Shown piece after piece: positions 6,072 to 54,385 of a DNA stretch of 64,000 nucleotides. Both the position numbers and the translations under genes were made by a program. Position 1 is the first letter of the stretch; every line of letters starts with the position of its first letter. The stretch is from an uncultured bacterium (lineage in GTDB: Bacteria; Cyanobacteriota; Vampirovibrionia; Gastranaerophilales; Gastranaerophilaceae): NCBI GenBank assembly GCA_949298805.1, contig CASFXY010000003.1, positions 1-64,000 of the forward strand, given 5' to 3'. The notes under the pieces are model-generated. The model did not search any database. It was not told the DNA's origin and saw nothing but the letters and a program-made list of their open reading frames with translations.

Positions 6072-6585
6072 GTAAAACTAATTCTCCGATTTTTTCTTTT
6101 AAAGCTTCGTAACGTTTCTTATAGTTTTCGCTAAATATATTCTCACTCCACATAATAAGGGCATCTTCATTGTTATTCTGGTAATATTTTTTTCTTAATC
6201 CCAAAGATTTAAACCCAAAACTCTCGTATAATTTTATTGCCCCTTCGTTTGAAACTCTTACTTCAAGAGTTAAATATTTTATTTTTTCCTTATAACATTC
6301 ATTTAGCGCATTTAAAAGCAATGCCTTTGCGGCACCTTTTCTTCTGAAGTCGGGATGTATTGCTAAATTTGTAATATGTGCTTCATCTATTATTTTCCAT
6401 AATCCCAAATAACCTGCCATTACTCCATTTTGATTATATGCGCAATTGTATGTTGATATTTGATTATCAATTTCAGCAACGAAAGACTCTCTACTCCAGT
6501 GATGTTTGCCGTATGCAAGTGCCTCAATTTGCATTACTTCATCGAGAGAATTTAGGGTCATTTTTTCTATTTTGAATTTATCCAT
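6064..6585 (-). CDS. rimI: Ribosomal protein S18 alanine N-acetyltransferase (GNAT)
   Basis: GNAT acetyltransferase of 173 residues. The acetyl-CoA-binding motif is RRKGAAKALL (about residues 81-90), preceded by the ITNLAIHPDF strand and followed by the EVRVSNEGAIKLYESFGF signature shared by RimI proteins. RimI acetylates the N-terminal alanine of ribosomal protein S18. A C-terminal extension of about 25 residues goes beyond the usual length. TAAAAT ends 6 nt before the ATG, with no Shine-Dalgarno, predicting a leaderless mRNA. The bioY-like gene overlaps its end. Confidence 0.82.
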   Translation of the reverse strand: MDKFKIEKMTLNSLDEVMQIEALAYGKHHWSRESFVAEIDNQISTYNCAYNQNGVMAGYLGLWKIIDEAHITNLAIHPDFRRKGAAKALLLNALNECYKEKIKYLTLEVRVSNEGAIKLYESFGFKSLGLRKKYYQNNNEDALIMWSENIFSENYKKRYEALKEKIGELVLHE

Positions 6586-26857: not shown

Positions 26858-26887
26858 AACTTAGGTATATATAAGAGGTACAGAACA

Positions 26888-28420
26888 ATTAATTACACAA
26901 TTTATATAGCAATTGCAGTTTTAACAATAGCGCTGATTATTTCGGTTATTTTAAATGTAAGACAAAAAACAAAACTTGAAGTATTTGGTGAGAATGAAAA
27001 AAAACTGCAAAAAGAATTTGAAGAAAAGGAAAGTTTTTTAAAAAAAGAAGCAATGATTGCTGCAAAAGAGCAACTTCATTTTGAACGTCAAAAATTTGAC
27101 GATGAAGTGCGCGAAAGACGTTCTGAAATAAATCGCCTTGAAAATTCTTTAATGAAAAAAGAAGAACAACTTGAGGACAGAGTTCAAAAAAATGTTGATA
27201 AAGAGCATGAGCTGAATAAAAAGTATGATGAACTGCTCGATAAGGAAGATTATCTGGCTGAAATCGTTGCAAAACAACTTTCAGAACTTGAACGCGTTGC
27301 TCAGATGTCGCGCGAAGAAGCTAAAAATATGCTTCTTGAGCAGTTAAAATCAGAACTTGCACAAGAACAAGTACAATTAATTCGTGAAAACGAACAAAAA
27401 ATAAGAGAAACGGCTGAAGAAAAATCAAGAGAAATACTTTCTCAAGTTATGCAAAGATGTGCTATTGAGCAAGTTATAGAATCTACAGTTTCTGTGGTTT
27501 CACTTCCTTCGGATGAAATGAAGGGAAGAATAATAGGTCGTGAAGGTAGAAATATCAGAACTCTTGAAACCTTAACGGGAGTTGATTTAATAATTGATGA
27601 TACGCCGGAAGCTGTTGTGCTTTCATCGTTTGACCCTGTCAGACGTGAAATTGCCAGACTTACAATTGAAAAACTTATAGCGGATGGCAGAATACATCCT
27701 GTCAGAATTGAAGAAGTTTACGAAAAATCTACTAAAGAGATAGAAAATAAAATGAAACAAGAGGGTGAGCGTGCAGCTCATGACCTCGGAATTATGAACC
27801 TTAACAAAGAGCTTACCAAGACTCTTGGACGCTTATATTATAGAACAAGCTATGGTCAAAATGTGCTGAAACACTCTATTGAAGTGGCGCAAATCGCCGG
27901 TATGTTGGCATCCGAATTGGGCGCTGACGTAAATCAGGCAAAGCGTGCAGGCTTGTTGCATGATATTGGTAAAGCCGTTGATCAAGAGCAGGAAGGCACC
28001 CATATTTCTCTGGGTGTTGAACTTGCAAGAAGATATGGCGAAAAAGAAGAAATAGTTCATGCAATCGAAGCTCACCATGATGACGTTCCGGCGCATACAC
28101 TTGTCGCTGCTTTGGTTAAAATAGCTGATGCTGTTAGTGCGGGCAGACCCGGTGCAAGGCGCGATACGCTTGAAATCTATATTAAACGCCTCAAAAAGCT
28201 TGAAGAAATTGCAAGCAGTTACGAGGGTATAAGGCAGTCCTTTGCAGTTCAGGCAGGTCGCGAAGTTAGGGTTGTAGTTCAGCCCAATGTTTTTGATGAC
28301 GCGGCAAGTGCTAAATTAGCTCGTGATATTGCAAAACGCATTGAGGATGAACTTGAGTATCCAGGACAAATCAGGGTTACTGTTGTCAGGGAAGCAAGAG
28401 TTACTGAAATTGCGAAGTAA
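26888..28420 (+). CDS. rny: Ribonuclease Y, probable AUU start
   Basis: Membrane-anchored endoribonuclease that starts mRNA decay. Read from ATT at 26888 the protein is 510 residues, the usual RNase Y length. It has an N-terminal transmembrane helix (about 2-24, IYIAIAVLTIALIISVIL), a long charged coiled coil (25-200), a KH domain with GRIIGREGRNIR (213-224) and an HD domain with LLHDIGKAVD (H358-D359). The first ATG in frame (27053) would remove the anchor and part of the coiled coil. No ATG, GTG or TTG lies between the in-frame stop at 26825 and 27053. AAGAGG (26873-26878) sits nine bases before ATT. ymdB follows, the usual partner. Confidence 0.93.
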   Translation: MNYTIYIAIAVLTIALIISVILNVRQKTKLEVFGENEKKLQKEFEEKESFLKKEAMIAAKEQLHFERQKFDDEVRERRSEINRLENSLMKKEEQLEDRVQKNVDKEHELNKKYDELLDKEDYLAEIVAKQLSELERVAQMSREEAKNMLLEQLKSELAQEQVQLIRENEQKIRETAEEKSREILSQVMQRCAIEQVIESTVSVVSLPSDEMKGRIIGREGRNIRTLETLTGVDLIIDDTPEAVVLSSFDPVRREIARLTIEKLIADGRIHPVRIEEVYEKSTKEIENKMKQEGERAAHDLGIMNLNKELTKTLGRLYYRTSYGQNVLKHSIEVAQIAGMLASELGADVNQAKRAGLLHDIGKAVDQEQEGTHISLGVELARRYGEKEEIVHAIEAHHDDVPAHTLVAALVKIADAVSAGRPGARRDTLEIYIKRLKKLEEIASSYEGIRQSFAVQAGREVRVVVQPNVFDDAASAKLARDIAKRIEDELEYPGQIRVTVVREARVTEIAK

Positions 28421-52690: not shown

Positions 52691-53107
52691 ATGCGCCAAA
52701 ACGGCATCGGAGTTCAATTAATAGAAAGAATAATAAGTTCGCTTTCGTATTTTACGTTCGGTATTGCCGGAGTTGTATGGATAATTGTTTGTTATATATC
52801 GAAAAATTCCATGTCGCATTTTTGTTCTTATAACATATACCAGTCCATATTTTTTTCAATTTTTATTTATGTAATTTCGCTTTTTTGTTCAATAGTTGCG
52901 GGAATTTTAAGCGCAGTACCTTTTTTAGGCAAAATAGTAAATGATTTTTCAATCTTTTTTGCGCAAACTCCAATTTATTTTGGCTATACTCTTTGGGGTT
53001 TGTTGATATTCGTTGTTACTTGTTATCTTGCACTTTTTGCTTTTTTTGGCAGGTACCCTTATTTACCTTTTATTTCTGATGTTATTGGTTCAAATTTTAG
53101 GAGATAG
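52691..53107 (+). CDS. Tic20-like small membrane protein
   Basis: A 138-residue protein with four hydrophobic segments (about 15-35, 48-70, 75-100 and 100-120). The pattern CSYNIYQSIFFSI matches the Tic20-family R-F-N/H-x-x-Q-A-I element, and the C-terminus FFGRYPYLPFISDVIG matches the family's GxYPxIPxIS end. Tic20 homologues are typical of Cyanobacteria and plastids; their bacterial function is unclear. AAGG lies about nine bases before the ATG. The FliO-like gene follows at 5 bp. Confidence 0.6.
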   Translation: MRQNGIGVQLIERIISSLSYFTFGIAGVVWIIVCYISKNSMSHFCSYNIYQSIFFSIFIYVISLFCSIVAGILSAVPFLGKIVNDFSIFFAQTPIYFGYTLWGLLIFVVTCYLALFAFFGRYPYLPFISDVIGSNFRR

Positions 53108-53111
53108 TATA

Positions 53112-53519
53112 ATTAAAAAGTTTTTTGTTATCTTTTGTATTTTTTTAAATACCCTTTCAGCTTTTGCTATGGACTCACCGTATTCTTCGCAAGAGTTTCA
53201 GGAAGTACTTAAGCATGATACTTATGAGCCGAATTATTTTACATTAATTTTCGGATTAATAATAGTTATATGTTTGATATATTTTACAGGTTATTTTTAT
53301 CAAAAACTTATTGGTGTAAATTCCAAAATAAATAAAAAAGCAGGCATTGATAACAATTTTGATAAAGTCAAAATTATCTCATCCACTCCCTTAGGGCAAG
53401 GCAAATGTATTTATATTGTTGAAATTAGAGGTAAGCATTTGGTATTGGGGGCGACAGATAATCAAATTAATTTGCTAAAGGAATACGATACATTTGATAT
53501 TAAAAAGGAAACCGATTGA
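53112..53519 (+). CDS. FliO-like membrane protein, probable AUU start
   Basis: Read from ATT at 53112, the product is 135 residues. It starts with a textbook signal peptide (KKFFVIFCIFLNTLSAFA), then has one transmembrane segment (about 39-58, FTLIFGLIIVICLIYFTGYF) and a FliO-type domain (VKIISSTPLGQGKCIYIVEI, then RGKHLVLGATDNQINLL). AGGAG (53099-53103) lies eight bases before the ATT. The frame extends up to an ATG at 53013, but that overlaps the preceding gene by 95 bp; the next ATG (53169) lies after the signal peptide and has no ribosome-binding site. No other flagellar gene is nearby, so a role outside flagella is possible. Confidence 0.75.
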   Translation: MKKFFVIFCIFLNTLSAFAMDSPYSSQEFQEVLKHDTYEPNYFTLIFGLIIVICLIYFTGYFYQKLIGVNSKINKKAGIDNNFDKVKIISSTPLGQGKCIYIVEIRGKHLVLGATDNQINLLKEYDTFDIKKETD

Positions 53520-54385
53520 TGCGCAGAACTGTTAAAATTGGTAATTATAACATTGGCGATTTGAGTCATTGCTTTATTATTGCCGAAATTGGTATTAATC
53601 ATAACGGCGATATTAACCTTGCAAAAAAACTTATAAAAATGGCACATGATTTAGGTGCAGATGCGGTTAAATTTCAAAAAAGAACGGTTGATGTCGTCTA
53701 TACAAAACATGAACTTGAAATGGAACGTCCAAATCCTTTTGGGAATACAAACGGAGATTTAAAAAGGGGTTTGGAGTTTGGTTATGATGAGTATAAAATT
53801 ATTGATAATTACTGCAAAAGTTTGTCTATATTGTGGTTCGCCTCTTGTTGGGATGAAGCTTCGGTAGATTTTATTGAACAGTTTAATCCCCCATGTTATA
53901 AAATTTCTTCCGCTTCTCTTACTGATGATGGTTTAATTTCTTATATTAAGAGCAAAGGGCGCCCAATTTTACTTGCGACCGGTATGAGCACCCAAGAGCA
54001 AATTGACCATGCGTTAGAAATTTTAGGGCAGGATAATATTATACTTATGCACTGTACCTCAACATACCCAAGTCGTGAAGATGAATTAAATTTAAATGTA
54101 ATTCCAAACTACATAAAGAAGTATAACTGTCCAATAGGTTACAGCGGGCATGAAAAAGGTGTTTTTCCATCTGTTTTGGCTGCTTCAATGGGCGCTTGTG
54201 CGGTTGAGCGACATATTACTACGGATAGAACTCTTTGGGGGTCGGACCATCCGGCGAGCCTTGAGCCGGACGGATTAAGGCGACTTGTTCGTGATATAAG
54301 ACTTTTAAACGTTATAAAAGGTGACGGGAAAAAGGTTGTTTATAATTCAGAGTTGCCTATAATTAAGAAACTTAGAAGGAAATAA
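53519..54385 (+). CDS. neuB: N-acetylneuraminate synthase-type enzyme
   Basis: A 288-residue NeuB-domain enzyme that condenses phosphoenolpyruvate with a hexosamine to form a nonulosonic acid. Motifs are IAEIGINHNGD, DAVKFQKRT, KISSASLTD, LLATGMST and the C-terminal IGYSGHEKGV and ACAVERHITTD. The SAF domain of many sialate synthases is missing, so it is a short form. The ATG at 53519 overlaps the TGA of the FliO-like gene, with AAGGA upstream. The phosphatase gene follows at 3 bp, which fits a route with a 9-phosphate intermediate; the exact sugar is unknown. Confidence 0.9.
   Translation: MRRTVKIGNYNIGDLSHCFIIAEIGINHNGDINLAKKLIKMAHDLGADAVKFQKRTVDVVYTKHELEMERPNPFGNTNGDLKRGLEFGYDEYKIIDNYCKSLSILWFASCWDEASVDFIEQFNPPCYKISSASLTDDGLISYIKSKGRPILLATGMSTQEQIDHALEILGQDNIILMHCTSTYPSREDELNLNVIPNYIKKYNCPIGYSGHEKGVFPSVLAASMGACAVERHITTDRTLWGSDHPASLEPDGLRRLVRDIRLLNVIKGDGKKVVYNSELPIIKKLRRK

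Follow-up and report, generated by a model that had tools for sequence, protein, structure and literature searches.

A fliO gene that appears to start at AUU throughout most of a genus of Gastranaerophilales

The stretch of DNA analysed here, referred to as the window, comprises 64,000 nucleotides from a 1.68 Mb genome (G000) of an uncultured member of the Gastranaerophilaceae, and one of its flagellar genes raises a simple question: at which codon does its translation begin? A first-pass annotation, made from the sequence alone, placed the start of a FliO-like gene at an ATT triplet lying in frame with the gene, eight nucleotides behind an AGGAG Shine–Dalgarno (SD) motif, and the coordinates it gave are correct (Table 1). 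The identity of the gene is strongly supported, with profile matches above the cut-offs for both PF04347 (E = 1.3e-11, 44.8 bits against 22) and TIGR03500 (56.8 bits against 55.25). Translation from the ATT would begin with a putative signal peptide whose design, a Lys-rich start, a hydrophobic core and an AxA-like end as judged by inspection, is common to the relatives. A hydrophobic segment, TLIFGLIIVICLIYFTGYFY, also recognized by inspection alone, precedes the matched domain. The predicted protein would resemble the FliO family (PF04347/TIGR03500) in its putative signal sequence, single membrane segment and small C-terminal domain, and would differ from it in that AUU replaces the canonical start.

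Table 1. Coordinates of the fliO locus and of the other AUU-started gene in the window
Feature	Position	Strand	Basis or remark
fliO SD motif AGGAG	53099..53103	+	within tail of upstream gene; seen in sequence
Proposed fliO AUU start codon (ATT)	53112..53114	+	codon conservation in genus and sister genera
Putative signal peptide (f)M-KKFFVIFCIFLNTLSAFA	53112..53168	+	sequence, by inspection; similar design in relatives
fliO CDS, 135 codons plus stop (53517-53519)	53112..53519	+	PF04347, TIGR03500
Upstream gene, 138-aa membrane protein, stop TAG 53105-53107	52691..53107	+	
In-frame ATG	53079..53081	+	absent from first-pass annotation; rejected as genus-wide fliO start
rny (RNase Y), other AUU-started gene	26888..28420	+	SD GAGGT 26875-26879; TIGR03319, 674 bits

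A single fliO was found in each of the 15 genomes of the genus, and FliP (PF00813), the known partner of FliO, is likewise encoded in each. Nearly all of these genomes hold two FliP-family genes, with frames of 259 and 220 aa (in G000 at C20:2054-2632 and C18:7361-7933), the second possibly being part of another type III-like system. Directly 3′ of fliO lies a neuB-like nonulosonic acid synthase gene, which in G000 overlaps it by TGATG (window 53517-53521); this fliO–neuB arrangement persists in most sister genera (loci L017-L031) and suggests a possible connection to flagellin glycosylation.

Several canonical codons lie in frame near the ATT. As first reported, a start at TTG 53013 would create a 95-bp overlap with the upstream gene, and ATG 53169 has no SD before it; that list missed ATG 53079, which would give a 29-bp overlap, and further TTGs such as the one at 53085. 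The motif AGGAG-N5-9-ATT occurs nine times in the window against a mean of 10.5 expected from shuffled sequences. An SD followed by ATT is thus at chance level, and the case for an AUU start rests on conservation.

This conservation is extensive. The codon aligned with 53112 is ATT in 13 of the 15 genomes, ATA in one (G009) and ATG in one (G002), and AGGAG is kept in 14 of them, about 4-8 nt 5′ of the start codon. In sister genera, ATG precedes the signal peptide at all 15 loci, typically as ATG AAA AAA. No relative was found with a canonical start at another place, since the ATG of G002 occupies the same position and those of the sister genera likewise stand before the signal peptide. On this comparative evidence the AUU call at 53112 is strongly supported and sound, and fliO of the genus appears to start at AUU, an unusual trait that almost all of its species share.

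Three readings would place the origin of the protein elsewhere. In the first, translation begins at an upstream canonical codon (ATG 53079, TTG 53085 or TTG 53013), giving an N-extended signal peptide in which the AUU is merely an internal isoleucine codon. Upstream canonical codons are indeed in frame in four species, G000, G012, G011 and G004, which retain an upstream ATG that could yield some N-extended product; none of those in G000, however, has an SD, and in ten of the 15 species an in-frame stop is followed by no ATG, GTG or TTG before the aligned start codon. The in-frame stop begins only 6 and 3 nt before the aligned ATT in G010 and G006, respectively; in G006 a TTG directly follows the ATT (ATT TTG). 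ATG 53079 was rejected as a genus-wide start because in ten relatives it is followed by in-frame stops or is out of frame, and ATA 53109 was set aside because it is found only in G000, other species having different codons there. The manner in which the upstream stretch evolves also argues against this reading. Among ten species with equal spacing, variation in the 60 nt before the ATT reaches 0.30 at fliO-frame position 2, against 0.04 and 0.10 at the other two, and this position corresponds to the third codon position of the upstream gene. The stretch therefore varies in the upstream gene's frame and is not fliO coding sequence; the region before 53112 shows no conservation in that of fliO. 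Neither of the two outcomes that the first-pass annotation had named as refuting it was therefore observed. After the ATT, the fast-evolving signal-peptide segment shows a weak third-position excess (0.38/0.30/0.50), and fliO downstream of it a strong one (0.20/0.09/0.50). We consider an upstream start improbable.

The second reading holds that translation starts after the signal peptide, at ATG 53169 or its equivalent, so that the protein lacks a signal peptide. An ATG is present at this position in G000 and several close relatives, but it has no SD, and more distant species carry CAA, CTT or GAA there. G007 and G010 contain no canonical codon in the 50 codons (150 nt) following the aligned start either, so that a canonical start in these species would cost the protein its signal peptide along with most, if not all, of the membrane segment. 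Given also the ATG before the signal peptide in the sister genera, a start this late is very improbable.

According to the third, fliO has no start of its own and is expressed by ribosomal frameshifting from the upstream gene, whose AGG and AGA codons and stop lie just 5′ of the junction. The shift required would differ between species, since the upstream stop and fliO stand in frame relations 1, 2 and 0, with gaps of 4, 3, 2, 0 and -1 nt among the genomes, and the in-frame stops of G010 and G006 would intervene. The occurrence of all three frame relations rules out a common frameshift fusion, leaving this reading with only a minimal probability. The same variation in frame relation and gap indicates that the start codon tracks the fliO frame through insertions and deletions.

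With the start position placed at the AUU, its history can be considered. A tree built from rny, infC and fliO places G002 as the earliest branch; the other 14 genomes form the ATT clade, on a branch that is only moderately supported (82/92), and the simplest history would be a single ATG-to-ATT change. Whether the identity of the codon matters is a separate issue. It may be that the AUU is the start yet has no function as such: with stop–start coupling and a strong SD the codon would hardly matter, and a chance ATG-to-ATT change would have been fixed by drift and then persisted. The upstream stop is only 0-4 nt away, a single origin suffices, and ATA is tolerated in G009, all of which agree with neutrality. 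On the other hand, none of the 14 descendants has reverted to ATG despite third-position divergence of about 0.5 per codon, and infC, rny and ispH keep AUH starts across the genus in the same genomes. We regard neutrality as possible though somewhat doubtful.

The explanation that we favour as a whole, with a probability of roughly 0.85, is that translation of fliO in this genus begins at AUU 53112 through the AGGAG, coupled to that of the upstream gene and with a low yield. The start position, codon conservation, SD, stop–start proximity and, as the simplest history, one ATG-to-ATT change are what the sequences show; coupling, reduced FliO yield and sensitivity to IF3 are parts that we infer. 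Lying in the upstream gene's tail, the AGGAG would place the 30S subunit at the AUU, which would presumably be read by the ordinary initiator tRNA-fMet(CAU) despite a mismatch at the third position: the 39 tRNAs found in this genome (94.8% complete) include one initiator type, with anticodon CAU, and no special initiator tRNA with another anticodon. FliO should accordingly still begin with formyl-methionine. The upstream stop lies 4 nt before the fliO start in the window and 0-4 nt before it in 14 genomes, the two genes of G002 overlapping as ATGA. With the SD in the upstream tail, this proximity has what we take to be the anatomy of translational coupling, and ribosomes terminating on the upstream gene would probably feed the fliO start.

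As a weak start, the AUU would likely hold FliO to a low, upstream-coupled yield. In Staphylococcus aureus reporters, AUU and AUA starts give about 10% of the AUG yield (PMC13009471), and non-canonical starts are subject to repression by IF3 (PMC5472188). FliO acts as a chaperone during assembly and is missing from the completed basal body (PMC5542435), and this membrane protein would be needed only while the FliP–FliR export gate is assembled. Since FliO is not part of the finished structure, a low yield would suffice.

How widespread are such starts? The first-pass annotation counted two independent AUU cases in 64 kb, the one besides fliO presumably being rny, and took them to suggest that the lineage uses AUU regularly; both cases are conserved, but the lineage-wide generalization is too strong. 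A scan for SD plus ATT in a single genome was too noisy to be useful, its matches being mostly internal. We compared a sample of G000 (864 kb, 783 predicted genes) with 1.2 Mb of G014, which gave 538 orthologue pairs. Across these pairs, an ATT identical in both species within the first 25 aligned positions was preceded in each by a properly spaced SD in 14 of 409 instances (3.4%), as against 186 of 6687 (2.8%) for other codons and 105 of 569 (18%) for ATG; ATT thus shows no enrichment at SD spacing over background. An earlier version of the screen picked up many ordinary ATG genes whose conserved leaders were short, and its third-position filter lost fliO. A strict screen covering ten near-cognate codons (ATT, ATA, ATC, CTG, ACG, AAG, AGG, GTC, GTT and GTA), which may miss fast-evolving or very short N-terminal extensions, passed four genes in the 538 pairs (about 0.7%): infC (ATT), rny (ATT), ispH (ATA) and fliO (ATT). 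None of the remaining near-cognate codons gave a passing gene. AUH starts would accordingly occur in roughly 1% of genes, a real but small conserved set that would mislead standard annotation. As a positive control for fliO, infC has its ATT start in 15/15 genus genomes.

For rny, every one of the 13 genus loci checked keeps ATT 26888, and its leader AAGAGGTAYAGRACA-AT[TCA] recurs in other families through much of the order (window 26875-26890; loci L089-L118); the leader and AUH codon may mark an AUH start used across the order, or else an RNA element close to the start. ATG, GTG or TTG occurs soon after the rny leader in several other families. In the genus loci that were inspected (L214 in G000 C11), the ispH (LytB) gene has an ATA start immediately behind a TAA. 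Near the aligned position, TTG stands in sister genera and CTG or ATC in many other families, while ATG is rarely seen (L189-L218); TTG, CTG, ATA or ATC is found in the start region of most loci inspected. In rpoC (L088; G000 C14, gene ending at 6311), the SD-led TTG of G014 is out of frame in G000 owing to a small indel, which reflects either an assembly error or a real change.

The best-known precedent is E. coli infC, which encodes IF3, starts at AUU and is autoregulated by IF3. Like it, fliO carries its AUU behind a strong SD, and the infC leader of the genus, GGAGATAAAACA-ATT, is similar to that of fliO, GGAGATAAAAAA-ATT; the infC AUU, however, serves autoregulation, whereas no feedback is known for fliO. 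E. coli pcnB, reported to start at AUU (Binns and Masters 2002, as cited in PMC1780047 and PMC13009471), resembles fliO as an ordinary gene with this codon, which in pcnB is taken to limit expression; fliO differs in being another gene, in another phylum, at a stop–start junction. In S. aureus, cvfC1 starts at AUU and ccpN/citZ at AUA (PMC13009471), also with strong SDs and conserved within their group, those starts having been established by ribosome profiling and reporters and that of fliO by comparative evidence only. The rare GTC start of Streptomyces sigR restricts the output of one member of a translationally coupled pair and is repressed by IF3 (PMC5472188). The fliO start would likewise be a rare one in a coupled pair, with AUU instead of GTC and with regulation that is demonstrated for sigR and conjectural for fliO. 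On the comparisons above, fliO is a putative addition to the known AUH-started genes (infC, pcnB, cvfC1). A literature search found no relevant report of an AUU start in fliO and, judged by title and abstract, nothing on non-canonical starts in Melainabacteria.

For annotation, the consequences are direct. As the first-pass annotation anticipated, gene callers limited to ATG, GTG and TTG would misplace these few genes; the result in fliO would be a truncated or distorted signal peptide, with the membrane segment affected as well in some species. The FliO family is already annotated inconsistently, sometimes via wrong start codons (PMC12403147). For regulation, one speculative and rather unlikely idea is that the AUH set (infC, rny, ispH, fliO and a few more) is jointly repressed by IF3 in Gastranaerophilales, its weak starts being actively kept. 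If true, RNA decay, isoprenoid synthesis and flagellum assembly would all be tuned by how much of a single initiation factor is present. The four-gene set makes such IF3-linked control directly testable. Conserved AUU starts outside infC have been documented in very few cases. In fliO the change from AUG to AUU apparently occurred once and was kept across the genus, which, with its AUG-bearing early branch, would offer a comparative natural experiment.
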